54,139 nucleotides of DNA from Acidimicrobiales bacterium (lineage in GTDB: Bacteria; Actinomycetota; Acidimicrobiia; Acidimicrobiales; Palsa-688), in the NCBI GenBank assembly GCA_036378675.1, contig DASUWA010000010.1, positions 78,661 to 132,799 of the forward strand, written 5' to 3'. The position numbers were made by a program, and so were the translations under genes. Numbering within the stretch: position 1 is the first letter of the stretch; every line of letters starts with the position of its first letter. This document shows, one piece after another, positions 12,079 to 30,748 of the stretch. The notes below the pieces were generated by a model that searched no databases, was not told where the DNA came from, and saw only the letters and a program-made list of their open reading frames with translations.

Positions 12079-13449
12079 CTAGCCTGCCGCCGCCGAACCG
12101 GATCGGTCGAGAAACAGGGCGTAGCGCTCGTCGGCCCCGCGGACCCACAGCTCGTCCGGCTCGACGATGTGGCCGGTGCGCGCCCAACGAGCTGCGTCGT
12201 TCACGTCCGACTCGAGTCCTGCCGCGACCCTTGCGAGAAACGCCGCGCCCCGCGCTGCTCCTTCTGGGTCGGCCGCCACGTGAACCGGCAGCGCGGTCAC
12301 GTCGGCGAGGGCGCGCATCCACCCGTCGACCTTCGTCCCGCCGCCGGTGACCACGAGGCGCCGCGCTTTCACACCGGCGAGCTCCAGGTGGTGTCGCACG
12401 ACGAACGCCGACGCCTCCCACCCCGCCCGGTGCAGCGCAGCCGGTCCGTGGGTCAGGTTCAACCCGTGCAGCGAGGCTCTCATCGCCGGGTCGTGGTACG
12501 GGGTTCTCTCGCCGCGCGGGTAAGGCGCCCACACCGGGACGTTTGCCGGATCCACACGGTCTCCGGTTGAGTCCCGTCCGATCATCCGGTTGGCCCAGTC
12601 GAGAAAAAGACCGCCGGCGTTGCTGGCACCGCCCACCATGTGGAGTCCCTTCGCGCCGGGGACACTCCAAAGCCCCGGGGCCGACACGGGCTCAGTGCTC
12701 ATCGCCCAAATGATGAGCGTCGTGCCGCACACCACGTGCACGTCGCCGGGGTCGTCCGCACCGGCCACCAGCTGCTCGCACCACACGTCGACCGTCCCGG
12801 CGGCGAGCGCGGGGCCGTCTCCGAACAGCTTGCCGACCTGGGCACCCGGAAATTCCAGCACCGCCAACTGGTCCGCTCTCACGCCGAACTGATCGCAGAT
12901 CTCTTCGTCCCAACCGTGGTCGCGAAACAGTGGCAGCGAAGTGAACGCAACGCCGTAGTCAACGGCCGGCGAGCCTCCCAGTGATTTGTTGGCGACCGCT
13001 TGAGCCGGCCAGTAACCGTGCGCTCCCGGCGCCTGCTCAACCGTCCAGCGGAGAAAACCGACGATCTCCCCGGTCCCCTCCGGTCCGTCGCCCTCCGTGC
13101 CTTGGTGCGATCCGGCGTTGATACGGCCGCGCTCGTCGCCGTACAGCAACCCGGGCGTCACCGGGCGGCCGCGCCGGTCGACGGCCGTCATCGACGGGAC
13201 CATCGCGGATACCGCAACACCCTTGGCGTCTATCGCCCCCAGCATCTTCAACGCCTTTACCGGTCCGCTTATCCATGCCCGCCTGGCGTCGTGCTCCATC
13301 CGACCTTCGGACGGCACGATGATGCGGTGCGGGACGCGCGACCGCGCGAGGACAGTCCCTTTGTCGTCGACGGCCACGGCTTTGACCGACGTCGTGCCGA
13401 TGTCGATGCCAACGGTCACCTGAGGCAATGGATCCCCCGAATATGACAC
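12079..13449 (-). CDS. FGGY-family carbohydrate kinase
   Basis: A 456-residue sugar kinase with the N-terminal ASKHA phosphate motif VGIDIGTTSVKAVAVDDKG and the C-terminal adenosine motif VVTGGGTKVDGWMRALAD followed by GAARGAAFLA. The family phosphorylates sugars or polyols such as xylulose, ribulose, fuculose or autoinducer-2. The most likely start is GTG 13449: it lies 7 bases after a TACTCT -10 box on the minus strand and inside the operator, so the message is probably leaderless. It leads an operon with the fused dehydrogenase and the GH1 enzyme and faces the hydroxyacid dehydrogenase and aldolase across a 28-bp gap. The substrate cannot be read from the sequence. Confidence 0.9.
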   Translation of the reverse strand: MSYSGDPLPQVTVGIDIGTTSVKAVAVDDKGTVLARSRVPHRIIVPSEGRMEHDARRAWISGPVKALKMLGAIDAKGVAVSAMVPSMTAVDRRGRPVTPGLLYGDERGRINAGSHQGTEGDGPEGTGEIVGFLRWTVEQAPGAHGYWPAQAVANKSLGGSPAVDYGVAFTSLPLFRDHGWDEEICDQFGVRADQLAVLEFPGAQVGKLFGDGPALAAGTVDVWCEQLVAGADDPGDVHVVCGTTLIIWAMSTEPVSAPGLWSVPGAKGLHMVGGASNAGGLFLDWANRMIGRDSTGDRVDPANVPVWAPYPRGERTPYHDPAMRASLHGLNLTHGPAALHRAGWEASAFVVRHHLELAGVKARRLVVTGGGTKVDGWMRALADVTALPVHVAADPEGAARGAAFLARVAAGLESDVNDAARWARTGHIVEPDELWVRGADERYALFLDRSGSAAAG

Positions 13450-13457
13450 GAGCGTCA
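13444..13457. promoter_or_regulatory. TGAC-N6-GTCA operator 1
   Basis: TGACACGAGCGTCA lies between the divergent kinase and hydroxyacid-dehydrogenase genes. On the minus strand it overlaps the end of the -10 box TACTCT and the GTG start of the kinase gene. On the plus strand TACGAC (13461-13466) follows it. It is one of five matching sites. Confidence 0.7.
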
Positions 13458-13477
13458 GAGTACGACAGGATGGTGCC

Positions 13478-14461
13478 GTGGACGAAACAGACCGGCCCCG
13501 CGCCCTGATAACCGCTCCGCTTCAGGGACCCGGCCTTTCGTTGCTTCGGGATCTCGCCGACGTCGTGTACGACCCCTGGATCGATCAGAACCCGCTCAGG
13601 ATCTACTCATCGGTTCAACTCAGGGAGCGCGCCGAACGCGAACGCGCCGACGTTCTGATCGTCGAGGCCGACATGATCGGCCCGGAAGTACTGGAACTGC
13701 CGCTACGAGTCGTCGCGGCCACCCGAGCCGATCCGGTCAACGTTGACCTGGGCGCCGCGACGAAGGCCGGCGTTCCCGTCCTGCGATGCCCCGGGCGCAA
13801 TGCCGATGCGGTCGCCGAGCTCGCGGTCGCCCTCGTGTTTGCACTGAATCGCCACATTCGCGCCGCAGACGCCGATGTGCGAGCGGGCGCCGTTTACCGC
13901 GACGGGAAGATCCCGTACCAGCGATTCCGTGCATGGGAGCTGTCCGGCCGGACCGCCGGGTTGGTGGGGCTCGGGGCGGTTGGGCGGGCACTGCGCTGGC
14001 GGCTCGAAGGTTTGGGGATGACAGTCGTCGCCCACGATCCGTACAGCGACGAGGCCAAGCTCTCGTTGGACGAGCTATTGGAGCGGTCCGACCTCATCTC
14101 CATGCACGCCCCCGTCACGCCGGAAACCACCGGCATGATCGGTGCGGACCAGTTTGCAGCAATGCGCCCGGGATCTCTGTACGTGAACACGGCACGGGCT
14201 CAGCTTCACGACACCGACGCGCTGGTCGCCGCGCTCCGCTCGGGTCCGCTGGCGGGTGCAGCTTTGGATCATTTCGTCGGAGAGCATCTCCCCGAAGACC
14301 ACCCCTTGATCGGCATGGACAACGTCCTGTTGACCCCGCACATCGGCGGCGCGACCTGGGACACCGAGTCGCGACAAGCGTCGATGGTCGCCGACGACCT
14401 GGCCCGCCTTTTGGAGGGGCAACAACCCCTGAACCTCGCCAACCCGGAGGTGTACTCGTGA
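13478..14461 (+). CDS. D-isomer-specific 2-hydroxyacid dehydrogenase
   Basis: A 327-residue NAD(P)-dependent dehydrogenase. The Rossmann motif is GLVGLGAVGRALRWRLEGLG (about 150-170). The catalytic Arg lies in NTARAQL, the Glu in HFVGEHLPEDHPL and the His in LTPHIGGATWDTES, so the active site looks complete. Members reduce 2-oxo acids or oxidise D-2-hydroxyacids such as phosphoglycerate or erythronate. It starts at GTG 13478 and overlaps the aldolase gene by 4 bases (GTGA). It is the first of five plus-strand genes in the sugar/beta-oxidation operon and lies downstream of operator 1. The opposing kinase suggests a joint sugar-acid route. Confidence 0.9.
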   Translation: MDETDRPRALITAPLQGPGLSLLRDLADVVYDPWIDQNPLRIYSSVQLRERAERERADVLIVEADMIGPEVLELPLRVVAATRADPVNVDLGAATKAGVPVLRCPGRNADAVAELAVALVFALNRHIRAADADVRAGAVYRDGKIPYQRFRAWELSGRTAGLVGLGAVGRALRWRLEGLGMTVVAHDPYSDEAKLSLDELLERSDLISMHAPVTPETTGMIGADQFAAMRPGSLYVNTARAQLHDTDALVAALRSGPLAGAALDHFVGEHLPEDHPLIGMDNVLLTPHIGGATWDTESRQASMVADDLARLLEGQQPLNLANPEVYS

Positions 14462-15114
14462 GGCACGTCGAAAACGCCCCGGAGGCGGTGCTCGCCGCAG
14501 CGAAGGACATGCTACGCAAGGGCCTCGTCGAGGGAACGGCCGGGAACATCTCCGCTCGCCAGGCCGACGGAAGCATCGTGATCACTCCGTCATCGGTCGA
14601 CTACGAGGACATGCAGCTCGACGACCTCGTGGTGATCGACCCGGACGGTAAGACCTTGTCGGCGAAGGAAGGCCGGTCACCGTCTTCCGAGAAGCTTCTC
14701 CACCTGGCCTGCTACCGGGCCTTCGACGACGTCGGATCGGTGATCCACTCGCACCCGGTTCACGCCACGATGTTCGCGATCACCCACACGTCGATACCCG
14801 CGTGCATCGACGAGTTTGCGATCTTCGTCGGTGGAGACGTGCGCTGCACCGACTACGCCGCCAGCGGGACCCCGGATGTCGGCGAGCAGGCGGTGAAAGC
14901 TCTCGAAGGGCGCGGCGCCGCGCTGATCGCGAATCACGGCATGGTCGCGGTGGGCCCCAAGCCGTCGACGGTCCTGCACATCACCGCGCTCGTCGAGCGA
15001 AGCGCTCACATTGTGTTTGGCGCCACGGTCCTCGGGCAGGTTCAACACCTCCCCGAGCAGGTGAACGAGGGCTTCGCCGGCATCTACGGGTATCTCCGCC
15101 AGAACCCGCTCTAG
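14458..15114 (+). CDS. Class II aldolase (fuculose-phosphate aldolase-like)
   Basis: A 218-residue class II aldolase/adducin-family enzyme. Zinc ligands are His97 and His99 in IHSHPVH and His160 in NHGM; the catalytic Glu is probably E79 in SSEKLLH. GTAGNISAR (about 27-34) is the phosphate-binding loop. It should cleave, epimerise or decarboxylate a phosphorylated sugar or sugar acid. The start is GTG 14458-14460, overlapping the upstream stop, with CGGAGG about 8 bases before. With the kinase and hydroxyacid dehydrogenase it forms a set of the kind used for fuculose, tetronate or similar C4-C6 compounds, but none can be chosen from the sequence. Confidence 0.9.
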   Translation: MRHVENAPEAVLAAAKDMLRKGLVEGTAGNISARQADGSIVITPSSVDYEDMQLDDLVVIDPDGKTLSAKEGRSPSSEKLLHLACYRAFDDVGSVIHSHPVHATMFAITHTSIPACIDEFAIFVGGDVRCTDYAASGTPDVGEQAVKALEGRGAALIANHGMVAVGPKPSTVLHITALVERSAHIVFGATVLGQVQHLPEQVNEGFAGIYGYLRQNPL

Positions 15115-15116
15115 AC

Positions 15117-15926
15117 GTGCCGATTCACTACGAGCTCGGAGGCGACCACGTTGTCGTCATAACCATCGACCGGCCCGAGGCTCGCAACTCGCTGGACCTG
15201 TACCACTTCCGTGACCTGGCGAACGCGTGGCGGCGTTTTCGTGACGACGAAGACGCCTGGATTGCGATCATCACCGGCGTGGAGGGCAACTTCATGACCG
15301 GGGCCGACCTGAAGACTTACATCCCGCAGATCACCGCCTTGCAAAAGCAGATTGCCAAGGGAGAGGTCACCGAGTTGGACGGCTGCCAGCTCAGAGACGG
15401 GACCGACGCCGTGCTCAGAAGCCTCACCATCTACAAGCCGATCATCGCTGCGGTCGACGGACCTTGCGTCGCGGGCGGCATGGAAATGCTCGGAGGCGTG
15501 GACATACGAGTTGCCACTCCGCGTGCGAAGTTCGGTGTCATGGAACCGAAGAGGGGACTGTTCGCCGGCGGTGGCACCACGGTCAGGCTCCCCCGTCAGC
15601 TCAACTATCCGGCCGCGATGGAATTCCTGCTCACCGCCGAGGCATTTCCAGCGGAGAGAGCCTTGGAGCTCGGTCTGGTCAACGAGATCGTCGCTCCAGA
15701 AGAATTGATGGATCGGGCACGGGATTGGGCGTCGCGGATCACCGCCAACGCCCCGCTCGCCGTCCAGGCGACCAAGGAGAGCGTGCTTCGCGGGCTCGGT
15801 GTCGACATGCACGAGGCGTACAAGATCGAGAGCGAGCTGGCAACGAAGGTGTTCTCCAGCGATGACGCCAAAGAGGGCCCGGCCGCGTTCGCCGAGAAGC
15901 GGGCACCGGAATGGAAAGGCCGTTGA
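15117..15926 (+). CDS. Enoyl-CoA hydratase/isomerase family protein
   Basis: A 269-residue crotonase-fold protein. The oxyanion-hole segments are GVEGNFMTGADLKTY (about 55-70) and DGPCVAGGMEMLGGVDIRVAT (about 118-138); the Glu in GGMEM and the acidic MEPKRGLFAGGG lie where the hydratase glutamates normally sit. It probably hydrates or isomerises an enoyl-CoA. The GTG start at 15117 is two bases after the aldolase stop and has no clear ribosome binding site, so it is likely read by coupling. It continues the operon into the thiolase genes, giving hydratase and thiolase steps together. Hydratase versus isomerase cannot be decided. Confidence 0.88.
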   Translation: MPIHYELGGDHVVVITIDRPEARNSLDLYHFRDLANAWRRFRDDEDAWIAIITGVEGNFMTGADLKTYIPQITALQKQIAKGEVTELDGCQLRDGTDAVLRSLTIYKPIIAAVDGPCVAGGMEMLGGVDIRVATPRAKFGVMEPKRGLFAGGGTTVRLPRQLNYPAAMEFLLTAEAFPAERALELGLVNEIVAPEELMDRARDWASRITANAPLAVQATKESVLRGLGVDMHEAYKIESELATKVFSSDDAKEGPAAFAEKRAPEWKGR

Positions 15927-17476
15927 GCGGCGGGTCACCCAGTAACGGATCTCGCACCGCGCCGTGCATCATCGGCGCTGCGCAAAGGACATGGCACCCT
16001 GGACCGGACCCCGCCCCGGAGCCCCTGTTGATGTGGCAGGAAGTCGCTGAGGCTGCGGCCGACGATACCGGAGCGTCTCCCCGCGCTGTGCTGGGGCGTG
16101 TTGGCAGCCTGGACGTCCTGTACTGCCAGAGCTGGCCGTATGACGACCCCGCCGGCCGGTTGGCGTCGGCCCTCGGCATCTCGCCGGCCCGCCAGGTCTA
16201 TTCCGGCATAGGAGGGACGACACCGCATCTGCTCGTGGCTCGAGCTGCCGCTGCCATCGCCGCCGGCGACTTGGACGTGGCGGTAGTGGTAAGCGGCGAG
16301 GCGCTCGACACGGTCCGCAGGGCGAAGAAGGCCGGCGAGAGGCTCGCGTGGTCCCACCGCGACCCGGAGAAGAAACCGTTCCCCTTCGAGGAGCCGTTTC
16401 ACCCGGCGGAGATCGCCCATTCCGTCTTCCAGGCGTGGCTGACTTTCGCGGTGTTCGACGTCGCCCGCCGGGCGCATCTGGGCGTGGATCCCGATGGCTA
16501 CAGGCGCGCTCTGGGCGACCTCCTCGCACGGCTGAGCGATGTCGCGGCATCGAATCCGCATGCGTGGTTCCCTTCCCGGCGCAGCGCCGGCGAGCTGATC
16601 GAGCCCACCCCGTCGAACCGGATGGTCGGCTACCCCTACACCAAGACCATGGTGTCGGTGATGGATGTCGACATGGCCGCGGCGGTCGTCATTGCCAGCG
16701 ACGAGGCGGCCGACAGCCTCGGGATCGGCTCCGACCGGCGCGTGTACCTGCACGGGACCGGTTACGCGCTCGATCCCGTCTACGTCGCCGAACACGAGCC
16801 GATGTGGGCCTCACCGGCGATGAGTTCCGCTTCCGCGTCAGCGCTGTCGTCGGCCGGGATCGGTGTCGACGACATCTCGTTCTTCGACCTGTACAGCTGT
16901 TTCGGGAGCTCGCTGAACTTCGCGTGCGACGTTCTCGGTCTCCAGCCCGACGATTCGCGCGGCTTGACGGTTACCGGTGGCCTCCCCTTCGCCGGCGGTC
17001 CGGGAAGCGGCTACATGCTTCACAGCACCGCCGCGATGGTCGAGAAGCTTCGCGACACGCCTGGCGCCTACGGGATGGTCAGCGGTGTCGGAATGCACAT
17101 GACCAAGCACGCGTTCGGCGTCTATCGATCGGCGCCGCCCGACGAGAACGTGGTAGCTGCTCTCGCTGCTGGTGAGGGTGGAGCGAGTCAGGTGGTGGTA
17201 CCCGGTGCGGGCAGGGCGATTCAGGACGTTTACGCTGGCGACGCGACGGTCGCCGCCTACTCGGTGGTCCATTCAAAGAGCGGTGAACCCGAGTGGGGTC
17301 TGGCCGTCTGCGATCTGCCCGACGGCAAGCGGGCCTACGCTCGGATCGAGGACCAGGCGGTACTGACCGACATGGAGAAGGACGAGTGGGTTGGTGCCGA
17401 AGTGCGCCTGGACGCCGGCGGCGACGGGGTCAACAGGATGATCGACAGGAAGGAGTCCCGTGGTGGCCGTGCGTGA
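15911..17476 (+). CDS. Thiolase-like protein lacking the usual nucleophilic Cys
   Basis: A 521-residue thiolase-superfamily protein of the large acetyl-CoA acetyltransferase type, with an OB-like C-terminal part (about 440-515). Where thiolases carry the nucleophilic Cys, this one reads YSGIGGTTPHLLVARAA (97-113) with no Cys. A later Cys in YSCFGSSLNFACDVLG and the His in GGPGSGYMLHSTAAM remain. It may work as an aldolase or partner protein rather than a classic thiolase, as Ltp2-type steroid aldolases do; this is inference. The ATG at 15911 overlaps the hydratase gene by 16 bases; a TTG at 15923 is an alternative start. The next gene is a complete thiolase. Confidence 0.8.
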   Translation: MERPLSGGSPSNGSRTAPCIIGAAQRTWHPGPDPAPEPLLMWQEVAEAAADDTGASPRAVLGRVGSLDVLYCQSWPYDDPAGRLASALGISPARQVYSGIGGTTPHLLVARAAAAIAAGDLDVAVVVSGEALDTVRRAKKAGERLAWSHRDPEKKPFPFEEPFHPAEIAHSVFQAWLTFAVFDVARRAHLGVDPDGYRRALGDLLARLSDVAASNPHAWFPSRRSAGELIEPTPSNRMVGYPYTKTMVSVMDVDMAAAVVIASDEAADSLGIGSDRRVYLHGTGYALDPVYVAEHEPMWASPAMSSASASALSSAGIGVDDISFFDLYSCFGSSLNFACDVLGLQPDDSRGLTVTGGLPFAGGPGSGYMLHSTAAMVEKLRDTPGAYGMVSGVGMHMTKHAFGVYRSAPPDENVVAALAAGEGGASQVVVPGAGRAIQDVYAGDATVAAYSVVHSKSGEPEWGLAVCDLPDGKRAYARIEDQAVLTDMEKDEWVGAEVRLDAGGDGVNRMIDRKESRGGRA

Positions 17477-18653
17477 GGCAGTGATCGTCGACTTGACGCG
17501 AACCGCGTTCGGCAAGCGCAACGGTGCCCTGGCGGGATGGCATCCGACCGATCTCCTCGGGTTCACGCTGCGCCACCTGGTCTACCGAAATGGGGTCGAC
17601 CCTGAGCTCCTGGACGACGTCGTCTGCGGTTGCGTCACGCAGTCGGGAGAACAGGGCTGCAACGTCGGCAGGAACGCGGTCATCGCCGGCGGACTTCCGT
17701 GGACGCTCTCCGCCACGAGCGTTGACCGGCAGTGCGGCTCTTCGCAGCAAGCGCTCCACTTCGTGGCGGCCAGCGTGATGTCGGGCATGTACGACCTGGC
17801 CATCGCGTGCGGCGTCGAGTCGATGTCCCGGGTGCCGATGGCTTCGAACGCGCGCGGCGGAACCGGTCCGTTCTCGCCGGCCTTCATGAGCGAGATCGAC
17901 AACCAGCTGTGGGCGCAGTTCCGGGTCGCGCAGGTTCTTGCCGATCAGGAGGGGATCACCCGCGAGGAGATGGACGCCTACGCGCTGGAAAGCCACCGTC
18001 GCGCGGCGGAGTCAACCCAAAGCGGCCACTTCGCGAAGGAGATCCTCCCCGTCCCGATCAAGGATCCCGAGTCGGGCGAGCTGACCGACGCGGTGCTCGA
18101 ATCGGACGAGGGGATCCGTCCCAACTCGACGATGGAGGCGCTCGCGGCGCTTCCGCCGGCGCAGTCGTGGGAACCGGAGACCGCGCCGGGGATCACCGCC
18201 GGCAACTCTTCGCAGATGACCGATGGAGCGGCGGCCGCTCTCATCGCAGACCGGTCCACCGCGGAGCGGCTCGGGCTGCCGATCCGCGCCCGGCTGATCC
18301 ATTTCGCGGTCGGGGCAGAAGATCCGGTCCTCGTGTTGTCTGCTCCCAACCGGGTGACCCGCCGGCTCCTCGACCGTTCCGGGATGAAGATCGCCGACTT
18401 CGACGCCATCGAATGCAACGAGGCGTTCGCCGCGATCGTTCTACGGTGGGCGCGAGAGTTCTCACCCGATCCGGAGTTGCTCAACCCTCGCGGCGGCGCG
18501 ATCGCGATAGGTCACCCACTCGGCGCGAGCGGGGTACGCATGACCGCCACTCTGCTCAACCACCTCGAGGCGACCGGAGGGCGTTACGGGCTGCAGACGA
18601 TGTGCGAGGGCGGCGGGCAGGCCAACTGCACGGTCATCGAGCGCCTCGGGTAG
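17463..18653 (+). CDS. Acetyl-CoA acyltransferase (thiolase)
   Basis: A 396-residue thiolase with the full catalytic set: nucleophile Cys91 in DRQCGSSQQA, His351 in GHPLGASG and the second Cys381 in CEGGGQAN. NSSQMTDGAAA is the usual thiolase signature. It should cleave 3-oxoacyl-CoA to acetyl- or propionyl-CoA in beta-oxidation. GTG 17463 is preferred over 17460 because AGGAAGGAG (17447-17455) then has a 7-base spacer; the gene overlaps the previous one by 14 bases. It is the last gene of the operon that begins at 13478, and a palindromic repeat follows. Confidence 0.93.
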   Translation: MAVREAVIVDLTRTAFGKRNGALAGWHPTDLLGFTLRHLVYRNGVDPELLDDVVCGCVTQSGEQGCNVGRNAVIAGGLPWTLSATSVDRQCGSSQQALHFVAASVMSGMYDLAIACGVESMSRVPMASNARGGTGPFSPAFMSEIDNQLWAQFRVAQVLADQEGITREEMDAYALESHRRAAESTQSGHFAKEILPVPIKDPESGELTDAVLESDEGIRPNSTMEALAALPPAQSWEPETAPGITAGNSSQMTDGAAAALIADRSTAERLGLPIRARLIHFAVGAEDPVLVLSAPNRVTRRLLDRSGMKIADFDAIECNEAFAAIVLRWAREFSPDPELLNPRGGAIAIGHPLGASGVRMTATLLNHLEATGGRYGLQTMCEGGGQANCTVIERLG

Positions 18654-20054: not shown

Positions 20055-20857
20055 GTGTCCTCCGATCCTCCAGGCACAACGGTGCCCCTTGCCGGGATCA
20101 CTGACGCGATTCCCGAAATGTAGGAGTCGATGTCTGCGTCCTTGCCGGTGACTATCTCCTTCATGTCCGGGAGGTAGTGCTCGAACCGGTCACCTTCGAT
20201 CGCCGCGACGATGCCCTCCGCAACGACGAGCGGCGGAACCTTGGGAATCTCGAACAACGCCGGGTCCTCTCCGGGCCGGTCCCAGATGTCGGTGTCGATC
20301 GGGCCTGGCTGGATCAAGCGCACCGCCACGTTGGTGCCCGCGAGGTCGATAGCCATCGACTCGCTCCAACCCGTCAGCGCGAACTTGCTGGCGCAGTACG
20401 CGGCTTCGTGGGGGATGCCGAGCCTTCCGCCCGTGCTGGCGACGTTCACGATCACCCCTCCGGGGCCTTCGAGCAGGCGGGGTAGCAGGCGCAGAGTCAT
20501 GCGGGCGGGCGAAAGGAAGTTGACCCGAAGGGTGAGCTCGACTTCGTCGGTGGTCAGCTCGGTTACAGCACGGCGTTTCGGGATCGCCGCGTTGTTCACG
20601 AGCACCTCGAGACCCCCGAACTCGTCCCAGGCCTCGTCGACCAATCGTTCGGCAAGGTCCAGGTCGCCAAGATCGGCGACCCACATCCGGCTCGCCGGGG
20701 AGTCCTTCTTGCAACCGTCGAGAACGGACTGCAGGAGCGCCGACCGGCGGCCCACGAGCCCGACGGTCGCTCCCATGCTTGCCATCAACCGGGCAGTTGC
20801 CGCGCCGATCCCGGAGCTCGCACCCGTAACCAGAACCCTCGCACCTTCAACTCGCAT
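20051..20857 (-). CDS. Short-chain dehydrogenase/reductase
   Basis: A 268-residue classical SDR. The cofactor loop is VTGASSGIG near the N-terminus, followed by LVNNAAIP, the catalytic Ser in NVASTGGRLG and the Tyr and Lys in YCASK. The ATG at 20857 directly precedes the fold and lies 8 bases after the upstream stop; a longer open frame exists but would run into the preceding gene. It probably oxidises or reduces a hydroxyl or keto group. Gene order acyl-CoA dehydrogenase, SDR, alcohol dehydrogenase points to one pathway. Confidence 0.9.
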   Translation of the reverse strand: MRVEGARVLVTGASSGIGAATARLMASMGATVGLVGRRSALLQSVLDGCKKDSPASRMWVADLGDLDLAERLVDEAWDEFGGLEVLVNNAAIPKRRAVTELTTDEVELTLRVNFLSPARMTLRLLPRLLEGPGGVIVNVASTGGRLGIPHEAAYCASKFALTGWSESMAIDLAGTNVAVRLIQPGPIDTDIWDRPGEDPALFEIPKVPPLVVAEGIVAAIEGDRFEHYLPDMKEIVTGKDADIDSYISGIASVIPARGTVVPGGSEDT

Positions 20858-22065: not shown

Positions 22066-22098
22066 GCGGACAAAGGTAACGCGCTGCCGTCCGGGATG

Positions 22099-23245: not shown

Positions 23246-24725
23246 CCACTTTTCCGGTGGCGTTGCGCGGGAGCTCGTCGACGAAGGAGATCTGGCGAGG
23301 GATCTTGTAGTCGCTCAACCGCTCGGACAGAAAAGCGCGCACCTTCTCCGTGTCCACGTCCGCGCCTTCCACCGTCACGATCCACGCGGCTACGTCTTCC
23401 CCGAGAACCGCATGGGGTATGCCTGCGACCGCGGCCTCACGAACCCCGGGATACTCGAGAAGAACCGACTCCACGTCGGAGGCATGGACGTTGTTCCCGC
23501 CGCGGATGATGACGTCCTTCGCTCTCCCGACGATGTACAGATAGCCGTCCTCGTCCAGGCGGGCGAGATCGCCGGTGTGCAGCCACCCGTCCCGCCACGC
23601 GTCCCTGGTGGCCTCCGTGTCGTTGAAGTACTCGCGTTCCTTGCCCGGGTTGGAGACGAGCAGCTCTCCGACCTCGCCGGCGGGTAGCTCCTCGCCCTCC
23701 TCCCCGATGATCTTCACGGTCATGGGCGGGACCGGTCTGCCCACCGAGCCGACCCTCCGCTCCGCCTCCTCCGGGGGCAGGACGCAGTACGCGGATCCGG
23801 CTTCGGTCATGCCCCAGTTGTTCGAAACCCAAGCGCCGGGAAGGCGGTCTCGAAGCCGGCGGAAGGTCTCCGGGGCCAGGGGGGCGCTCCCGAGGCTCAC
23901 CATCTTCAGGCTCGACAGATCGGCTGCCTCGAAGCGCGGGTGTGCGAGCAGCAGGTGCGCCATCGCGGGTACGAGGAACACGGCTGACGGCCGCCGGTGC
24001 TCGACGATGTCGAGCCACTGGCCGGCGTCGAAGCGCGGCTGGTAGAGACTGGTCATGCCGAGCTTCATCGGGTTGTAGAGCGACGAGATCCCGGCGAAAG
24101 TGAACAACGGCGACGAGTGAAGCCAGCCGTCACCGGTCCAGTTGGGCAGCATGTTGGGCATCATCGAGGCGTTGCTGTGCCTCACCACGACGCCCTTCGG
24201 GCGCCCCGTAGTCCCGGACGTGTAGATGATGTCAGCCATGTCTGTCGGGTCGAGTGGCACCTGGATCGGGTCACCTCTCCGCCCAACGTCGGCCCATCCG
24301 TGGTGGTCTCCCGATGCTTCACCGGTCGTCGCGGTCCACCGCAGCGATCGCAGCGAGGATCTGACCTGATCGAATGCGGACTGGGTAGCCGCGCCGACGA
24401 AGGCAGCGACTGCGCCGGAGTGGTCGAGCACGTACTCGAGTTCTCGACGGGCGAGCCGGGTGTTGGTGGGGACTGCGACCGCCCCTGACTTGTGGATCCC
24501 CGAGTAGGCGACGATCCACTCCAGGCAGTCTTCCATGGGGAGGTAGATCGCCACCCTGTCGCCCTTGGCGACACCGGCATCGATCAACGCAGAGGCGATT
24601 CGGTCCGATTCGCCGTCCCACTCGGAGAAAAAGAGAGCACGGTCACGCCCCAGGTCCACGTGAGCGATCTCGCCCGGGAAGTGCTCGGCCATCATTCTCA
24701 GCTGGTCGGTCAACAGATCACTCAA
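23211..24725 (-). CDS. Acyl-CoA synthetase (AMP-binding)
   Basis: A 504-residue ANL-family ligase with DIIYTSGTTGRPKGVVV (P-loop), NNWGMTEAG, TGDLARLDEDGYLYIVGRAKDVIIRGG split across A7-A8, and the catalytic lysine motif ELPRNATGKVVKRAL near the end. All core motifs are intact. It starts at TTG 24725, close to operator 3, and stands alone on the minus strand. It activates a fatty or aromatic acid to CoA; the substrate cannot be told. It differs clearly from the three other ligases here, which suggests division of labour rather than recent duplication. Confidence 0.92.
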   Translation of the reverse strand: MSDLLTDQLRMMAEHFPGEIAHVDLGRDRALFFSEWDGESDRIASALIDAGVAKGDRVAIYLPMEDCLEWIVAYSGIHKSGAVAVPTNTRLARRELEYVLDHSGAVAAFVGAATQSAFDQVRSSLRSLRWTATTGEASGDHHGWADVGRRGDPIQVPLDPTDMADIIYTSGTTGRPKGVVVRHSNASMMPNMLPNWTGDGWLHSSPLFTFAGISSLYNPMKLGMTSLYQPRFDAGQWLDIVEHRRPSAVFLVPAMAHLLLAHPRFEAADLSSLKMVSLGSAPLAPETFRRLRDRLPGAWVSNNWGMTEAGSAYCVLPPEEAERRVGSVGRPVPPMTVKIIGEEGEELPAGEVGELLVSNPGKEREYFNDTEATRDAWRDGWLHTGDLARLDEDGYLYIVGRAKDVIIRGGNNVHASDVESVLLEYPGVREAAVAGIPHAVLGEDVAAWIVTVEGADVDTEKVRAFLSERLSDYKIPRQISFVDELPRNATGKVVKRALVEQRQE

Positions 24726-24735
24726 CGGCGAAACC

Positions 24736-24749
24736 TGACGCGCGTGTCA
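24736..24749. promoter_or_regulatory. TGAC-N6-GTCA operator 3
   Basis: TGACGCGCGTGTCA sits between two divergent ligase genes. On the plus strand TATACA (24750-24755) directly follows and fits a -10 box, placing transcription near 24762. The site would block this promoter and lie just upstream of the TTG start at 24725 on the other strand. Confidence 0.75.
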
Positions 24750-24816
24750 TATACAGTGGAACCGAATGTAGCGGGCCGGCGACTGACCAGTCGAGCGACG
24801 GTCGAGTGAGGGATGG

Positions 24817-24888
24817 ATGGCAGAAACCCACCAACGCGACGCACTCATTCGATTGGAGCGCGTCGACCCGGCAGAGAGACGCCTCTAG
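24817..24888 (+). CDS. Possible leader peptide upstream of ligase
   Basis: A 23-codon frame (MAETHQRDALIRLERVDPAERRL) starts at ATG 24817 with GAGG five bases before it and stops at 24886-24888. Two bases later the GTG at 24891 opens the ligase frame. It may only serve to carry ribosomes to the ligase start. There is no similarity to a known leader peptide, so this is a weak call. Confidence 0.35.
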   Translation: MAETHQRDALIRLERVDPAERRL

Positions 24889-24890
24889 CC

Positions 24891-26594
24891 GTGCGACATA
24901 TCGCGACCACCGCCATGCCGGCGGAGCCCTCGTTCCCTGAATACACGCCGACCGTTCCCGAGCTGCTCCGTTCCGGCCGCGACCGATTTGGTGCGAACGA
25001 CTGCGTCATCACGCCGGACTCGAGGCTGAGTTACTCAGAGCTCGACGAGATGTCGCGCCGCCTGGCGGCGCACCTCGTCCGAATGGGGATCGAGAAGGGC
25101 AGCCGGGTCGGCCTACTGTTCCCCAACGGCGCCGACTGGGTGGTGTCCTGGGCGGCCACGACACGCATCGGGGCCGTCGCCATACCGGTCAACACCTTCT
25201 ACAAGACGCCCGAACTGGCCAAGTTCCTGCGTCACGCCGACGTCCAGTACTTGCTCGGAGTCGGACAGTTCCTCCAGCACGACTATCTGTCGAGGTTGGA
25301 ATCGATCGCACCCGAGATCTCCGAGCAGCGGTCCGATTCGCTTGCCCTTCCGAGCCTGCCGCAGCTGAGGCGCGTGCTCTTATGGGAGTCATCCGATCGC
25401 GAGTGGGCCGACGGTGGGGTCGGCGAATCCCTGAGTCAAGACGTCGATCAAACCCTCATCGGCGTGGTCGACGGGCTGGAAGACGATGTCGCCCCCGGAG
25501 ACGTTCTCCTCGTGACCTACACATCGGGTTCGACCGGCGAGCCGAAAGGCGTGGTGCACAGCCATGGAGGTGTGATCCGCCACGCCCACAACCTCGCTTC
25601 TTTGTCGGGCATCGATCCGGAATCGCGCATCTGGACACCGATGCCCCTGTGCTGGGTGGGCGGGTTCTCGTTCAGCATGCTACGGGCGATGGTCGCCGGT
25701 GGTTGCTTCCTGACCCAGGAAGTGTTCGAGCCTGGCGCGGCCCTCCGGATGTTCGCGACGGAGAAGGTGACCAACATCTCCGCTTGGCCGGCGGTTGCCA
25801 AAAGCCTGAGGGAGCACCCCGACTTTCCTGCGACGGATTTGAGTTCGCTTCGGAGCGGTGTGTCGTTCTACGAGGCGGTGCCCCCCGATCGAAGGCCCGC
25901 CGACCCGACGCTTGCGATCAGCTCCCTGGGTATGTCGGAGACCTGTGGGCCTCACACCTTCTGGAACGTGAACGAGGAAGTTGCTGGGGTCCCTGAGCAG
26001 TACCGCGGTGCGTTCGGCCACGAAGTTCCGGGGACCGAGCACCGAATCATCGATCCGGAAACCGGCGAAGACGCGCCGGACGGCCATGAGGGTGAGGTCC
26101 TGGTCCGCGGGTACAGCATGATGCTCGGCCTGTACAAGCAGGAGCGGTCCGAAGTATTCGACAGCGAGGGTTGGTACCACACCGGAGACCGCGGCTACTT
26201 CCGCGACGGATGGTTCTTCTTCACGGGCCGGCAGACCGACCTGATCAAGACCGCAGGCTCCAACGTGGCACCCGCGGAAGTCGAACGGTGCCTTGGTGCA
26301 TACGACGATGTGAAGCTCGCCTTCGTTGTCGGGGTTCCCCACGAGATCAAAGGCCAGGAAGTGGTGGCCCTCGTCGTGCCTTGGCGGACTGGAACCGATG
26401 GTGAGTCGCCGGCGCCACCCGAACCCGACGCGCTGCGCCAGCGGCTGAGGGAAGAGCTGTCGTCGTATAAGGTCCCTGCGCATTTCCTCGTAATCGAAGA
26501 CGAGCAGGTGCCCTGGCTGGTCAGCCAGAAGGTCGATCGACGCGCACTGACCACACTGGCCGAGAAGATGCTCGCAGAGCAGGTCGCAAGGTAG
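24891..26594 (+). CDS. Acyl-CoA synthetase (AMP-binding)
   Basis: About 567 residues from GTG 24891. An upstream ATG at 24813 abuts its purine stretch; an ATG at 24915 is also possible. Motifs are VTYTSGSTGEPKGVVHSHGG, SLGMSETCG, TGDRGYF and GRQTDLIKTAGSNVAPAEVE. The C-terminal lysine lies in SQKVDRRAL. It belongs to the same subgroup as the ligase at 3780-5402. Its TAG stop (26592-26594) is followed, in the same reading frame, by the TetR gene, so the two are co-transcribed. Operator 3 lies upstream. It probably activates a pathway acid, and the regulator may sense the product. Confidence 0.9.
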   Translation: MRHIATTAMPAEPSFPEYTPTVPELLRSGRDRFGANDCVITPDSRLSYSELDEMSRRLAAHLVRMGIEKGSRVGLLFPNGADWVVSWAATTRIGAVAIPVNTFYKTPELAKFLRHADVQYLLGVGQFLQHDYLSRLESIAPEISEQRSDSLALPSLPQLRRVLLWESSDREWADGGVGESLSQDVDQTLIGVVDGLEDDVAPGDVLLVTYTSGSTGEPKGVVHSHGGVIRHAHNLASLSGIDPESRIWTPMPLCWVGGFSFSMLRAMVAGGCFLTQEVFEPGAALRMFATEKVTNISAWPAVAKSLREHPDFPATDLSSLRSGVSFYEAVPPDRRPADPTLAISSLGMSETCGPHTFWNVNEEVAGVPEQYRGAFGHEVPGTEHRIIDPETGEDAPDGHEGEVLVRGYSMMLGLYKQERSEVFDSEGWYHTGDRGYFRDGWFFFTGRQTDLIKTAGSNVAPAEVERCLGAYDDVKLAFVVGVPHEIKGQEVVALVVPWRTGTDGESPAPPEPDALRQRLREELSSYKVPAHFLVIEDEQVPWLVSQKVDRRALTTLAEKMLAEQVAR

Positions 26595-26603
26595 CTTCCC
26601 ACG

Positions 26604-27278
26604 ATCACCGCCCCCGGCAAGTCCCCCGAACAGCGCCCAACCACCACTTCCGGTGGCGCACCCGCGCAGAACCGCCAGCTCCGAAAGCAAGGCAAGGAAA
26701 CCCTCAGGAAGCTCCTCGAAGCCGCGATCGTCGTGTTCGACGAGCGGGGATACCACGCCGCACGCGTAGACGACATCGTCAAGGTCGCGAAGACATCGCA
26801 CGGAACCTTCTACCTCTACTTCCGCAACAAGCAGGACCTGTTCCTCGCGCTCGTCGACGACGTCACCGCGGCGATGCGTGAACTCGCCGAGTCGCTGCCG
26901 CCCATCAAGCCTTCGAAGGCGGGATACGACGAACTCAGATCATGGCTCGACCGCTTCTACGGAATCTACGAGCACTACCACCCGGTGATCCGCGCCTGGA
27001 CAGAGGCAAACGCACAAAACGTGGAGATGGCGAGGACAGGAGCACGTGTGCTGCGCAGGTTCATCGACCAGCTCGTCTTGCGAGTCCAGGAGTCCGACCG
27101 CGCGGCTGTACCCGACCCGGATATCGCCGCCTTCGCGATGGTTTCCATGGTCGAGCGGGTGAGTTTCTACGCGGTGGCCAGAATGGTCCCGGTCGATCGG
27201 GAATCCCTGATCGACAACCTCGCCACGATCCTGCATGTCGGGCTCTTTGGCGGTGTCCGCCGGCGTGCCGGCGACTAG
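26604..27278 (+). CDS. TetR family regulator without an ordinary start codon
   Basis: The TetR DNA-binding domain is clear: LRKLLEAAIVVFDERGYHAARVDDIV, split by the first GTG, then AKTSHGTFYLYFRNKQDLF. That first GTG, at 26733, would cut off helix 1. Between the ligase stop at 26594 and 26733 the same frame is open for 46 codons but holds no ATG, GTG or TTG; only ATC (26604) or ACG (26601) could start. It may use a rare start, arise by readthrough of the TAG, or make a shortened protein. Its place amid five TGAC-N6-GTCA sites makes it the best candidate regulator of that set. It overlaps the convergent ligase by 4 bases. Confidence 0.8.
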   Translation: MTAPGKSPEQRPTTTSGGAPAQNRQLRKQGKETLRKLLEAAIVVFDERGYHAARVDDIVKVAKTSHGTFYLYFRNKQDLFLALVDDVTAAMRELAESLPPIKPSKAGYDELRSWLDRFYGIYEHYHPVIRAWTEANAQNVEMARTGARVLRRFIDQLVLRVQESDRAAVPDPDIAAFAMVSMVERVSFYAVARMVPVDRESLIDNLATILHVGLFGGVRRRAGD

Positions 27279-28948
27279 GCGTCCGGTCGCGGCCAGAAGC
27301 CCCTGCGGCCGTTGGACCGAAACCGCTCACATAGAGCGTCCTCGTCTGCTTGTGTGAAAGGGCGGTAGACCAGCGCCGGGTCCGGCCTCCACCAGACCGG
27401 GTCGGTTGCGATCCATGCAGCCCTACGGAGTGGTGCCTTGTCAAGCTTGCGCGCGCCAGTGACCGGAAGCTCAGCGACGATCCTGACGAAACGAGGCGCC
27501 CACTTCGTGCCGAGGTCCGGTTGACCCGCAAGGAAGTCGGCGAAGTCGGCGGGGTCGAACGCTTGACCCGCGGGGATCTCGAGAGCGGCCATCACCTGAT
27601 CGCCGCTGACTGGGTCCGGGACGCCGTACACCGCCACCCCGGACGCAGACGGAAACCGGTTCAGAATCCTCTCCACCCCGCCCGCGGAGAAGTTCTCCCC
27701 GTCCACTCTCAACCAGTCCGCACTACGCCCCGCGAAGTAGAAAAAATCCTCGGCGTCGCGATACCCGAGGTCACCAGTCCAGTACCAGCCGCCGCGAATA
27801 CGTTGCGCTTCGGCTTCGGGGTTGTTGTAGTAGCCCTCAAAACGGTCGGCGGTGTTGCGCCCCACGATCTCCCCGACGGCCTGCTCAGGATTCGTCAGCC
27901 GGCCGTGCACGTCGAACCTGGCGGGGGAGCATTCTCGCCCGGTGGCCGGGTCTACGACGGTGACATCCATTCCCCCTTTGGGTTTGCCCATCGCTCCTGG
28001 CGGCATCCCACCCACCGGCGATATCACCACCGCGTTCTCGCTCGACCCGTACCCTTCGAACACGGGGCAGTTGAAGCGCCTGGTGAACTCGGCGATGTTC
28101 TGCGGCGAGGCCTCCGACCCGAGCGCCCACTTCAGTTGGTTGTCGCCGTCTTCGGGTGTTTCCGGAACCGCGACGATGTAGGACAGCGCGCGCCCGACGT
28201 AGTTGAAGTAGGTGCAGCCGTGGCGACGGATATCCGGTCCGAACGACGACGCCGAGAACCTCCGGCGCAGCACGACCGACGCGCCGGTTATGAGGGCCGG
28301 GAACAGGTTCGCAAGCAGCGCGTTGCCGTGGAACAGCGGCATGGAGCAGTAGAGAACGTCTGCAGGCCCGAACGCGATCGCGGAGTCCGCGGAGGTGCGG
28401 GCCGCTCGACCTTGCGACATGCGCACCGCTTTCGGCGCGCCGGTCGAACCGGCGGTGAACAGGAGCAGATAGAGCTCCTGAGGATCCGGCTGCCGATCAC
28501 GCTGCGCGGGCTGCCCGTCCAGCAATCGGCGGTATGGCTCCGACTCGACGTCGATGACCCGCCCGCTCGCCGCCCCCAGGTCTAGGTCATCGAGGAGAAC
28601 GCCTCCTGCCTCGTCGGTGAGGACGAACTGGCAGTCGGTGTGCGAGACATCGCGTGCGAGCTCCGCTCCCCGCCTGGTCGAGTTGATCCCAACGACGGTC
28701 GCGCCGCTGAGCGCTGCACCGAAGAGAACGAAGACGTACTCGGGAACGTTCTCTAGGAGAACCCCCACGTGAAATGGGCCGGGGCGCCTTAACTCGGAGA
28801 GCGCTGCCGCGCGGCGCCGTGATTCGGCGACGACCTCCGACCAGCTCCAAGTCGTGTCCTCGAAGATCAAGCCGGGCCCCGGGTCCGCGCTCCGCGCGGT
28901 CACGTAGCCGGCGATAGTGGGGCTCGCCTCCGACCCCTCGTCGTTCAC
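27275..28948 (-). CDS. Long-chain acyl-CoA synthetase (FadD17/FATP-like)
   Basis: A 557-residue ligase with LLLFTAGSTGAPKAVRMSQGR as the P-loop, VFEGYGSSENAV, the A7 YWTGDLGYRDAEDFFYFAGRS region and ELPVTGARKLDKAPLRR near the C-terminus. The tail PVWWRPDPALVYRPFTQADEDALCERF is typical of the very-long-chain/FATP-like group that includes mycobacterial FadD17, which acts in cholesterol side-chain breakdown. The GTG at 28948 lies 6 bases after TAGAGT, fitting a leaderless start. It shares operator 4 with the divergent amidohydrolase. The steroid-like role is an analogy only. Confidence 0.9.
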   Translation of the reverse strand: MNDEGSEASPTIAGYVTARSADPGPGLIFEDTTWSWSEVVAESRRRAAALSELRRPGPFHVGVLLENVPEYVFVLFGAALSGATVVGINSTRRGAELARDVSHTDCQFVLTDEAGGVLLDDLDLGAASGRVIDVESEPYRRLLDGQPAQRDRQPDPQELYLLLFTAGSTGAPKAVRMSQGRAARTSADSAIAFGPADVLYCSMPLFHGNALLANLFPALITGASVVLRRRFSASSFGPDIRRHGCTYFNYVGRALSYIVAVPETPEDGDNQLKWALGSEASPQNIAEFTRRFNCPVFEGYGSSENAVVISPVGGMPPGAMGKPKGGMDVTVVDPATGRECSPARFDVHGRLTNPEQAVGEIVGRNTADRFEGYYNNPEAEAQRIRGGWYWTGDLGYRDAEDFFYFAGRSADWLRVDGENFSAGGVERILNRFPSASGVAVYGVPDPVSGDQVMAALEIPAGQAFDPADFADFLAGQPDLGTKWAPRFVRIVAELPVTGARKLDKAPLRRAAWIATDPVWWRPDPALVYRPFTQADEDALCERFRSNGRRGFWPRPDA

Positions 28949-28978
28949 GGCCCGACTCTAACGACAGCCGCCCGTCTA

Positions 28979-28992
28979 TGACGTGCGTGTCA
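28979..28992. promoter_or_regulatory. TGAC-N6-GTCA operator 4
   Basis: TGACGTGCGTGTCA lies in the 78-bp gap between the ligase (minus) and amidohydrolase (plus) genes. TACGAT (29013-29018) follows on the plus strand, 8 bases before GTG 29027. TAGAGT serves the minus strand. Confidence 0.75.
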
Positions 28993-29026
28993 CAGTCTGG
29001 GCGGCGCCGGTCTACGATCGTTGCTG

Positions 29027-30184
29027 GTGACGCAAATGGCTGGCCCGACCATCATCTCGGTAGACGACCACCTCATCGAACCACCCGTCCTCTTCGAAGG
29101 TCGGATGCCCTCCAGCCTCGCCGACCGGGCGCCGCGGATCGTTGAGTTCGAAGACGGCCGGCAGGCGTGGGACTACGAGGGCAACTTGTACGCCAACGTG
29201 GGACTCAACGCCGTGGTCGGGCGCCCGCGGGACGAATGGAGCATGGAGCCCGCCCGGTTCGACGAGATGCGCCCGGGTTGCTACGACATTCACGAGCGGG
29301 TCAGGGATATGGACGCAGGCGGCATCTGGGCGTCGGTTTGCTTCCCGTCGCTCATCGCCGGCTTCTGCGGCGCAGTCTTTTCGAACAGCAAGGACCCCGA
29401 ACTCGGCCTCGCCTGCGTCCGGGCGTGGAACGACTGGCATCTCGAGGTCTGGGCGGGCACATATCCCGGCCGGGTAATCCCTCTCCAGCTGACCTGGCTG
29501 CGCGATGCCGAGATAGCGGCAGAGGAGGTCCGCAAGAACGCAGAGCGAGGGTTCAAGGCGGTGAGCTTCGCCGAGCTACCGTCGAAGCTGGACTTGCCGT
29601 CGCTGCACTCGCGCCACTGGGACCCGTTCCTTTCCGCGTGCGAGGAAACCGGAACCGTCATCTGCTTGCACACCGGATCGTCAGGATGGGCGCCGCTGCC
29701 TTCGCCCGATCCTCCGTTCGAGCTGTACCCGACTCTGTTCCCGGCCAGCAGTCTGGTGGCGGCCACCGACTGGTTGTGGTCGCGGGTATGCGTGCGGTTC
29801 CCTCGTCTCCGCATCGCGATGTCCGAGGGTGGCATCGGCTGGGTGGCGATGCTGGCCGACAGAGCGGACTACGTTCTCGACCACTCCGCTTCTGGAAACG
29901 AAAGCAGGGCCTGGAAGAGCGACCTTCGTCCTAGCGAGGTTCTGGCCCGGAACTTCTGGTTCTGCACGATCGACGACCCGAGCAGCGTGGATGCGGTGAT
30001 CCAGAGGGTCGGTCCGGATCACATCATGGTGGAGAGCGACTACCCGCACGCCGACTCGACCTGGCCAACGACGTGGGATCGAGTGAAGGCAAACTTCGGA
30101 CATCTTCCGCAGGAGATCATCGACAAGGTGACGTTTCGGAACGCGGCCGAGCTGTTCGGGGTGCCGCTGCCCCCGGGGGCTTAG
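29027..30184 (+). CDS. Amidohydrolase family protein (TIM-barrel)
   Basis: A 385-residue metal-dependent hydrolase of the amidohydrolase-2 type. It begins with ISVDDHLIEPPVLFEGR, the D-x-H-x-x-E-P form of the first metal site. ICLHTGSSG supplies a second His, and MVESDYPHADSTW holds the late Asp and His. Family members hydrolyse or decarboxylate cyclic acids and lactones. GTG 29027 is chosen because TACGAT lies 8 bases before it; a TTG at 29021 is also in frame. It is related to the enzyme at 35198-36316 (ADSHITEP at the same place). The reaction is unknown. Confidence 0.88.
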   Translation: MTQMAGPTIISVDDHLIEPPVLFEGRMPSSLADRAPRIVEFEDGRQAWDYEGNLYANVGLNAVVGRPRDEWSMEPARFDEMRPGCYDIHERVRDMDAGGIWASVCFPSLIAGFCGAVFSNSKDPELGLACVRAWNDWHLEVWAGTYPGRVIPLQLTWLRDAEIAAEEVRKNAERGFKAVSFAELPSKLDLPSLHSRHWDPFLSACEETGTVICLHTGSSGWAPLPSPDPPFELYPTLFPASSLVAATDWLWSRVCVRFPRLRIAMSEGGIGWVAMLADRADYVLDHSASGNESRAWKSDLRPSEVLARNFWFCTIDDPSSVDAVIQRVGPDHIMVESDYPHADSTWPTTWDRVKANFGHLPQEIIDKVTFRNAAELFGVPLPPGA

Positions 30185-30245
30185 CCGGGCCCCTGCCCAC
30201 TGCGGACGCGCAGAACTGCTTCGTGACTCAGCCCGTCTTCGTGAC

Positions 30246-30716
30246 TCAACCCTGCAGCGACTTCCAGTAGGACATTGGCAGCAGCTCGATGAGCTGTCCA
30301 TCGGGGTCTCGCACGAAGAGCGCAGCCCCGATGTCCGTCCCTTCGACCAAGGTCCCGCCCAGGTCAGTTGCCCGCGTTGCCGTCTCGTGCACGTCTTCGA
30401 CGCTGAAGGACAGATGGGTGAGCCCGGCTTCGTTCATCGGTCGCTTTCGGGCAGGCGGGTTGCCAGACCGGTCGAAGTGCAGCAACTCGAGTACGAAGTC
30501 ACCTTTCCGCATGTACGACGCCGTCATCCCGAGGGGCGCTTCGACCTGCAGCAGCCGATCGGACGGCTCGTCAGGGACCTTCAGCTCCCGTACAAGCTCG
30601 AAGCCGAATAGTTCCTGGTAGAAGCGCCCGGCACGCTCGAGGTCCGTGACGCAGTGCCCGATGTGGTTCAGGACGACTGCCTCGCCGTCCGGATTCTGGT
30701 TCCCGTCGACTGCCAC
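30246..30716 (-). CDS. VOC family protein (glyoxalase-like)
   Basis: A 156-residue vicinal-oxygen-chelate protein. It has two beta-alpha-beta-beta-beta repeats: LNHIGHCVTDLERAGRFYQELFGFEL near the N-terminus, split by residue 30, and THLSFSVEDVHETATRATDLGG in the second half, ending in FVRDPDGQLIELL. The His in NHIGH, the His in LTHLSF and the late Glu fit metal ligands, so it may be a lyase, isomerase or dioxygenase. The start is GTG 30716, nine bases after a possible minus-strand TAGGTT. Operator 5 lies just upstream. A role in the catabolic pathway is likely but unspecified. Confidence 0.85.
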   Translation of the reverse strand: MAVDGNQNPDGEAVVLNHIGHCVTDLERAGRFYQELFGFELVRELKVPDEPSDRLLQVEAPLGMTASYMRKGDFVLELLHFDRSGNPPARKRPMNEAGLTHLSFSVEDVHETATRATDLGGTLVEGTDIGAALFVRDPDGQLIELLPMSYWKSLQG

Positions 30717-30734
30717 CGGCCTAGGAACCTACTA

Positions 30735-30748
30735 TGACAGGCGTGTCA
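30735..30748. promoter_or_regulatory. TGAC-N6-GTCA operator 5
   Basis: TGACAGGCGTGTCA overlaps both the -10 box TACTAT (30730-30735) and the GTG start (30743) of the deacylase gene. This is the same geometry as operator 1 on the kinase side. Binding here would block initiation directly. Confidence 0.75.

Follow-up and report, generated by a model that had tools for sequence, protein, structure and literature searches.

A 54,139-base stretch of an Acidimicrobiales genome (contig DASUWA010000010.1), referred to here as the window, contains a catabolic gene cluster, of a type resembling those for lipid breakdown, in which five copies of a short palindrome lie between divergent genes. Comparative analysis indicates that these palindromes are very probably the operators of TetR1, a pathway-specific, EthR-like repressor of the TetR family that is encoded in the same unit as the acyl-CoA ligase AMPL3. 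An earlier reading of the letters alone (the sequence-only reading) had listed five sites and seen no other full match in the window. Both observations were exact. The pattern TGACRNGMGYGTCA matched at 13444, 22099, 24736, 28979, and 30735, compared with a mean of 0.04 matches in 100 dinucleotide shuffles of the window. There was no further TGAC-N6-GTCA in the window, and the next best candidate had one arm mismatch. The sequence-only reading had also placed each site in a gap between divergent genes. All five do lie between divergent open reading frames (ORFs), but the site at 30735 overlaps the ATG (30734) of the downstream Amidohydro_3 ORF, and the site at 13444 overlaps the start (13449) of an over-extended kinase ORF, for which a start at about 13419 seems likelier. 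The five sites flank ten divergent units with about 19 genes, with operon membership judged from spacing.

The motif was linked to TetR1 in loci that were chosen by TetR1 homology alone. The best 80 matches gave 79 loci (954 kb), some of them on contigs fetched earlier. In an unbiased test of 3,840 dyads (256 four-base arms with 15 spacers), TGAC-N6-GTCA was the most overrepresented dyad, with 153 occurrences versus 10.8 expected. The other dyads among the top 25 were frequent, mostly GC-rich words with a roughly two- to fourfold excess; the exception was CTGA with a spacer of 8 (56 versus 4.8), which represents this same site extended by one base. Control dyads related to the motif, seven in all, occurred 1 to 25 times in the same 79 loci. 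TGAC-N6-GTCA led again when the test was limited to the 300 bp upstream of the TetR genes (usable at 78 of the 79 loci), with 29 occurrences versus 0.54 expected, distributed over 26 stretches. Altogether, the motif was found in 69 of the 79 loci: 19 of 20 in which the TetR1 homologue was at least 50% identical, 23 of 25 at 45 to 49%, and 27 of 34 below 45%. A site lay no more than 600 bp upstream of the TetR start in 11, 14, and 4 loci of these classes, respectively. The closest homologue records were titled Acidimicrobiaceae, Acidimicrobiia, Acidimicrobiales, Actinobacteria, or Actinomycetes, and records lower in the list carried Frankiaceae, Streptosporangiales, Bifidobacterium breve, and Acidobacteria labels.

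Alignment of the 153 sites in both orientations yielded the consensus wACCTGACRCSSGYGTCAGGTw, a dyad of 20 to 22 bp with the core TGAC-N6-GTCA and weak flanking positions (commonest base, 39 to 59%). Compared with the form given in the sequence-only reading, the motif is longer at its flanks and looser within its core. The R/Y refinement of the core (the R/Y rule) is partly derived from the same sites that it describes; the unbiased dyad tests used TGAC-N6-GTCA only.

The distribution of the site at orthologous promoters was also consistent with TetR1 as its reader. In a sample of 298 genomes of the order, evaluated with cutoffs of E<=1e-30 for TetR1 and for the second candidate, TetR2, and E<=1e-80 for the D-2-hydroxyacid dehydrogenase of the window (2HADH), TetR1 was found in 38 genomes and 2HADH in 80. 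The dehydrogenase was present in 37 of the 38 TetR1-positive genomes but in only 43 of the 260 others. Upstream DNA was usable at 79 of the 81 2HADH places, and the site was sought within 250 bp. An exact TGAC-N6-GTCA was present at 28 of 36 TetR1-positive places versus 2 of 43 TetR1-negative places (Fisher p 5e-12). The counts were 25 versus 2 when the R/Y rule was required and 30 versus 9 when one arm mismatch was allowed. In a hand tally of families that hold both TetR1-positive and TetR1-negative members, the contrast persisted (14 of 17 versus 2 of 11, p 0.0015), and it did so too after exclusion of family f9 (13 of 15 versus 2 of 11), from which the single TetR1-negative place had already been removed. 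On closer inspection, which covered seven genomes, one of the two TetR1-negative genomes with an exact site (G186) had a TetR1-like gene on the contig that carries 2HADH.

Individual operators can be followed in relatives. Genomes G007, G001, G020, and G012 have TGAC-N6-GTCA in the gap that corresponds to operator 1, and their orthologous gaps keep this pattern despite differing core bases. The operator 2 site between the acyl-CoA dehydrogenase genes ACAD1 and ACAD2 is conserved in G001 and has one arm mismatch in G007 and G113. The operator 3 site is conserved in G007 and G001; in G113, G070, and G145 the promoter of the ligase AMPL2 has a site opposite a P450 gene. Operator 4 is conserved in G007 and G145, with one mismatch in G113, and operator 5 has the same start-overlapping position in G007. 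Comparison thus establishes the motif, its link to TetR1, and its promoter-proximal position.

Several observations weigh against this assignment. At eight of the 36 TetR1-positive places, 2HADH is not preceded by an exact site; of the 28 matches at 2HADH promoters, 3 break the R/Y rule and lie 83 to 198 bp away. The second TetR1-negative genome with an exact site, G223, kept this label on closer inspection, with TetR proteins limited to more distant and tandem ones. Ten of the 79 TetR1-homologue loci lack TGAC-N6-GTCA, including that of G008, in which TetR1 is about 61% identical. The site has been lost from the ACAD gap in G012 and G145 and from the AMPL4 gap in G070. Genome G012, which is 76% complete, has sites in the cluster but no close TetR1. 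In relatives, the strict pattern by itself has little value as a marker: it was missing from 20 of 40, and most of the rest had one to three strand matches. Evidence for the link is sparse outside the order, where seven short TetR1-like loci, drawn from other families of the phylum, yielded one R/Y site and two sites that break the rule. Furthermore, the sequences are related, so the p values overstate independence. Finally, where the TetR1 homologue is less than 45% identical, a site seldom directly precedes the TetR gene, and paralogous regulators may therefore share the motif.

This last point raises the possibility that the motif is read by several paralogous TetRs of one subfamily and that the five sites are cross-regulated nodes rather than operators of TetR1 alone. 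The continued presence of the site at most loci below 45% identity would be expected in that case, and the genome under study has 21 TetR1-like matches at E<=1e-3, TetR1 included, as well as promoter-proximal sites at other gene sets. However, the strongest motif link is with close TetR1 orthologues, and the other TetR matches in this genome (G000) are at most 34% identical among the matches listed, some over only part of the protein. We consider shared reading by paralogues improbable. A reader in the form of TetR2 (1983-2612) is less probable again. The sequence-only reading had named both proteins as candidates; the association tests singled out the protein at 26604-27278, whereas TetR2 occurs in only 4 of the 298 genomes, a distribution that cannot explain so wide a motif and on which TetR2 was rejected. 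Its orthologues, seen additionally in G001 and G020, do adjoin cluster genes in those two genomes, and the four sampled genomes with TetR2 are TetR1-positive as well. Nevertheless, many TetR1-positive genomes without TetR2 have sites upstream of 2HADH, and of the four TetR2 loci returned, the single one with TGAC-N6-GTCA breaks the R/Y rule.

Explanations that need no regulator fared worse. TGACA resembles part of a -35 box, and at operator 2, read by eye, GTGACA and TACGAT are separated by a 16-bp spacer, as might be seen if the palindromes were TTGACA-like -35 elements, in mirror image, of closely spaced divergent promoters. However, 41 of the 43 orthologous 2HADH promoters of TetR1-negative genomes lack an exact copy of the motif, the motif is also found in 43 tandem gaps, and hexamers of the form TANNNT occur at several offsets from the operator rather than at one. 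Mirrored -35 boxes were rejected on the first two of these grounds and are a very remote prospect. Chance recurrence in GC-rich DNA has next to no probability. Two of the ten strict sites in the genome are inside genes, as are most loose matches outside the window, but chance was rejected on the window shuffles, on the 14-fold excess in the independently chosen loci of the dyad test, and on the 2HADH promoter contrast.

The placement of the sites suggests how TetR1 might act. In a gap classification based on a simple gene caller trained on the window, 57 of 130 R/Y sites fell into divergent gaps, a category covering 3.5% of the sequence, and 43 were in tandem gaps; 24 were deep inside genes (84% of the sequence), 6 were near locus ends, and none was in a convergent gap. 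Four control dyads together gave 7 sites in the same classification. TANNNT is the usual form of the actinobacterial -10 element. Relative to a control rate taken from mostly coding DNA, TANNNT hexamers peaked at offsets of 0, 2 to 3, 8 to 9, and 18 to 22 from the operator edge and were rare between. The 76 hexamers left after removal of repeats had their strongest period at 9 to 9.5 bp among those tried, with 10.5 fitting less well; helical phasing is suggested, not proven. Within the window, TANNNT was found at 6 of the 10 operator flanks, at offsets of 2, 3, 7, 18, 20, and 20. Preferred distances of this kind fit a dimer that lies across the core promoter and excludes RNA polymerase, i.e., repression, but are no proof of it.

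In the mechanism that we propose, a TetR1 dimer would read the two TGAC half-sites, about 20 to 22 bp overall, and when bound would cover the core promoter of one or both divergent units. The ten units, tetR1 included, would be kept off together until a ligand from the pathway, the likeliest being the acid substrate or the corresponding CoA thioester, filled the C-terminal pocket and the dimer was released. We infer TetR1 binding, its repressive sign, the ligand, operon structure, and autoregulation in this genome.

The N-terminal helix-turn-helix of TetR1 matches PF00440 (TetR_N) with 57.3 bits against a cutoff of 24, and the segment SHGTFYLYF is unchanged in 29 of 31 aligned homologues. As is expected of the TetR family, a short palindrome is associated by sequence with its own and neighboring genes. 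The AlphaFold2 model (mean pLDDT, a per-residue confidence score, 86.9) has the all-helical TetR fold with a C-terminal ligand domain; a fold search returned 296 PDB matches at E<=0.001, with EthR and FadR leading among the matches listed. EthR is the closest solved fold (Z 19.1 to 20.2, root mean square deviation 2.7 to 3.0, 177 to 192 residues aligned), followed by 2oer (Z 16.9), FasR (about 16), and FadR (about 15). KstR and FasR are actinobacterial TetR regulators of lipid genes. FasR is a fold relative of TetR1, but TetR1 is below the NCBIfam cutoffs for FasR (NF053731, 39 versus 330), KstR (NF033703, 18.9 versus 280), and FadR (NF053878, 52.4 versus 200), and its EthR_C match narrowly misses the Pfam gathering threshold (25.7 versus 27 bits). 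Therefore, TetR1 is best described as an EthR-like TetR that is not EthR.

Two features of TetR1 genes were noted in passing. Between the AMPL3 stop and the conserved N terminus (26592-26735) there is no in-frame ATG, GTG, or TTG, and the earliest candidate start is ATC at 26604. A GTG is present in the orthologue from G007, and that of G113 showed only a CTG overlapping the upstream stop. Open frames of about 480 to 630 amino acids with two TetR1-like domains in tandem occur at G018:C12:52126-53436, G223:C27:45542-46696, G303:C29:306-1484, and G163:C20:5455-6732, and presumably resemble Mce3R in arrangement.

Sites elsewhere in the 4.14-Mb assembly were also evaluated, as the sequence-only reading had proposed, and the outcome was mixed. 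The strict pattern gave 14 strand matches versus 4 for a reversed-pattern control, and these represent ten distinct sites. Half of the ten are in this 17-kb stretch and three more are promoter proximal, but two are inside called genes (C24:69402 and C47:2143). The spread of sites is thus concentrated in the cluster, not exclusive to it. The site at C13:64531 is 20 bp upstream of a flavoprotein gene (L001 4210-6012, G000:C13), which is followed by genes for a short-chain dehydrogenase and an Amidohydro_2 protein. The closest solved relative of the flavoprotein is 5mq6, deposited as a pyridine nucleotide-disulfide oxidoreductase-like protein; the next nearest structures are phenylacetone and steroid monooxygenases, i.e., Baeyer-Villiger enzymes. 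At C13:175138 the site overlaps an enoyl-CoA hydratase gene at its 3' end, and a second hydratase gene, accompanied by a ligase gene, lies 45 bp further on. The site at C34:5706 is followed by an ORF for which Pfam gave no match. The looser pattern TGACRNNNNYGTCA gave 35 sites genome-wide versus 7 for its reversed control. Thirty are outside the window, 8 of these outside called genes, including C47:10368 in a divergent gap between genes for an acyl-CoA dehydrogenase and a short-chain dehydrogenase/reductase and C18:20135 in a gap between SBP_bac_5 and 2-hydroxyacid dehydrogenase genes; most loose matches outside the window are probably chance. TetR1 would then control the ten units of the window and a few loci elsewhere, with the Baeyer-Villiger monooxygenase-like gene at C13:64531 perhaps in the same regulon.

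A far broader proposal is that TetR1 represents a class-wide branch of EthR-fold regulators (Acidimicrobiia, perhaps beyond) that would serve as the main switches in breaking down a polycyclic, steroid- or terpenoid-like lipid. One dyad would sit at helically spaced positions over many core promoters, including that of a Baeyer-Villiger monooxygenase operon, and mycobacterial EthR/EthA would be a reduced descendant. We regard this extension as doubtful.

TetR1 shares its fold with EthR of Mycobacterium tuberculosis, but the two are only about 24% identical. EthR adjoins the Baeyer-Villiger monooxygenase gene ethA, and a parallel is provided by the related gene at C13:64531, which is preceded by the same operator as the TetR1 cluster. 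Unlike EthR, TetR1 does not have the monooxygenase-like gene as its neighbor, and the motif that accompanies it is a short palindrome found at many operons. The EthR motif is described, in the part of the source available, as larger, more complex, multicopy, and not a classical palindrome (PMC4482099), whereas the operator here is a simple dyad. Bacillus FadR, an acyl-CoA-sensing member of the TetR family, is a fold relative; FadR of Bacillus and Thermus controls fatty-acid degradation genes, but the Thermus consensus, given as TTRNACYNRGTNYAA in the accessible text (PMC5597230), differs from the TetR1-linked operator. BkaR (Rv2506, MSMEG_4718) is, according to the accessible portion of its description, a TetR repressor that regulates its own expression and that of a catabolic cluster; its sites are palindromic and have the core GTTA(N)T(N4)A(N)TAAC (PMC3920632), which the five window sites do not share. 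FadR of Sulfolobus acidocaldarius is archaeal, unlike TetR1, but the two are alike in that one TetR repressor is paired with a few dyad sites in a gene cluster, in that case a fatty-acid cluster with a 16-bp motif, as far as the excerpt at hand describes it (PMC6449355).

A literature search by operator letters gave no TGAC-N6-GTCA notation among the matches listed, all of which were unrelated by title. Searches that combined terms listed only a paper on quorum sensing in Acidithiobacillus and an unrelated one. The text on the M. tuberculosis binding network contains neither TGAC nor GTCA, and motifs are not printed there as letters (PMC4301838). Table 2 of PMC4482099 presents mycobacterial motifs as logos, so one of these motifs could still match. 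As far as the literature was searched, the regulon is previously undescribed, although its kind is well known. The sequence-only reading had proposed an undescribed TetR-type regulon for the catabolic cluster, and this proposal is supported by a motif that follows TetR1 through most homologous loci and tracks its presence at orthologous promoters.

Many TetR proteins lack a known operator, and the relatives considered here are, judged by their record titles, almost exclusively metagenome assemblies, for which genetic work is difficult. Sequence alone has connected an operator with its likely reader and with its target genes in dozens of genomes. This turns an uncharacterized catabolic cluster into a testable regulon, in which the operator is a ready probe and reporter and the repressor offers a way to the natural substrate.

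Table 1. Predicted operators and genes of the proposed TetR1 regulon in the window
Feature	Position	Strand	Location or basis
Operator 1, TGACACGAGCGTCA	13444..13457		Gap between FGGY kinase operon (-) and 2HADH operon (+)
Operator 2, TGACACGCGTGTCA, perfect palindrome	22099..22112		Gap between acyl-CoA dehydrogenases ACAD1 (-) and ACAD2 (+)
Operator 3, TGACGCGCGTGTCA	24736..24749		Gap between acyl-CoA ligases AMPL2 (-) and AMPL3 (+, then TetR1)
Operator 4, TGACGTGCGTGTCA	28979..28992		Gap between acyl-CoA ligase AMPL4 (-) and Amidohydro_2 protein (+)
Operator 5, TGACAGGCGTGTCA	30735..30748		Gap between glyoxalase-fold protein (-) and Amidohydro_3 protein (+)
TetR1, proposed cognate repressor	26604..27278	+	EthR-like fold, SHGTFYLYF recognition segment; Pfam TetR_N, association tests, model, fold search
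Glycoside hydrolase family 1, last gene of kinase-side unit	8676..9857	-	Pfam; operon membership from spacing
Fused double acyl-CoA dehydrogenase, 736 aa	9859..12069	-	Pfam
FGGY-family carbohydrate kinase	12079..13419	-	Pfam; xylulokinase-like, below NCBIfam cutoff; probable start
D-2-Hydroxyacid dehydrogenase (2HADH)	13478..14461	+	Pfam
Class II aldolase	14458..15114	+	NCBIfam PRK05874 (L-fuculose-phosphate aldolase), above cutoff
Enoyl-CoA hydratase	15117..15926	+	Pfam
Thiolase-like protein type 1	15911..17476	+	Pfam
Acetyl-CoA C-acyltransferase (thiolase)	17460..18653	+	Pfam, NCBIfam
Zinc-type alcohol dehydrogenase	18816..20054	-	Pfam
Short-chain dehydrogenase	20051..20857	-	Pfam; start from gene caller
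Acyl-CoA dehydrogenase ACAD1	20866..22086	-	Pfam; probable start
Acyl-CoA dehydrogenase ACAD2	22133..23245	+	Pfam
Acyl-CoA ligase AMPL2	23211..24725	-	Pfam
Acyl-CoA ligase AMPL3	24813..26594	+	Pfam
Acyl-CoA ligase AMPL4	27275..28948	-	Pfam; nearest NCBIfam CasI steroid-22-oyl-CoA synthetase, below cutoff
Amidohydro_2 family protein	29021..30184	+	Pfam
Glyoxalase-fold protein	30246..30716	-	Pfam
Amidohydro_3 family protein	30734..32416	+	Pfam

The nearest NCBIfam models of the cluster enzymes include CasI, CasG, IpdE2, EchA19, and a steroid thiolase. All are below their cutoffs, and no substrate is therefore claimed; our guess is a large, probably cyclic or branched lipid acid. The aldolase, 2HADH, and FGGY kinase together recall what we take to be a similar group in M. 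tuberculosis, Rv0727c-Rv0729, for which a literature search listed no paper. In the protein encoded at 9859-12069, the N-terminal and the C-terminal dehydrogenase domain are each matched by two stretches, and the protein therefore probably consists of two fused halves. At gathering thresholds, Rfam gave no match in the window. The window has a single tRNA, tRNA-Ile (GAT), at 49127-49202 on the minus strand.

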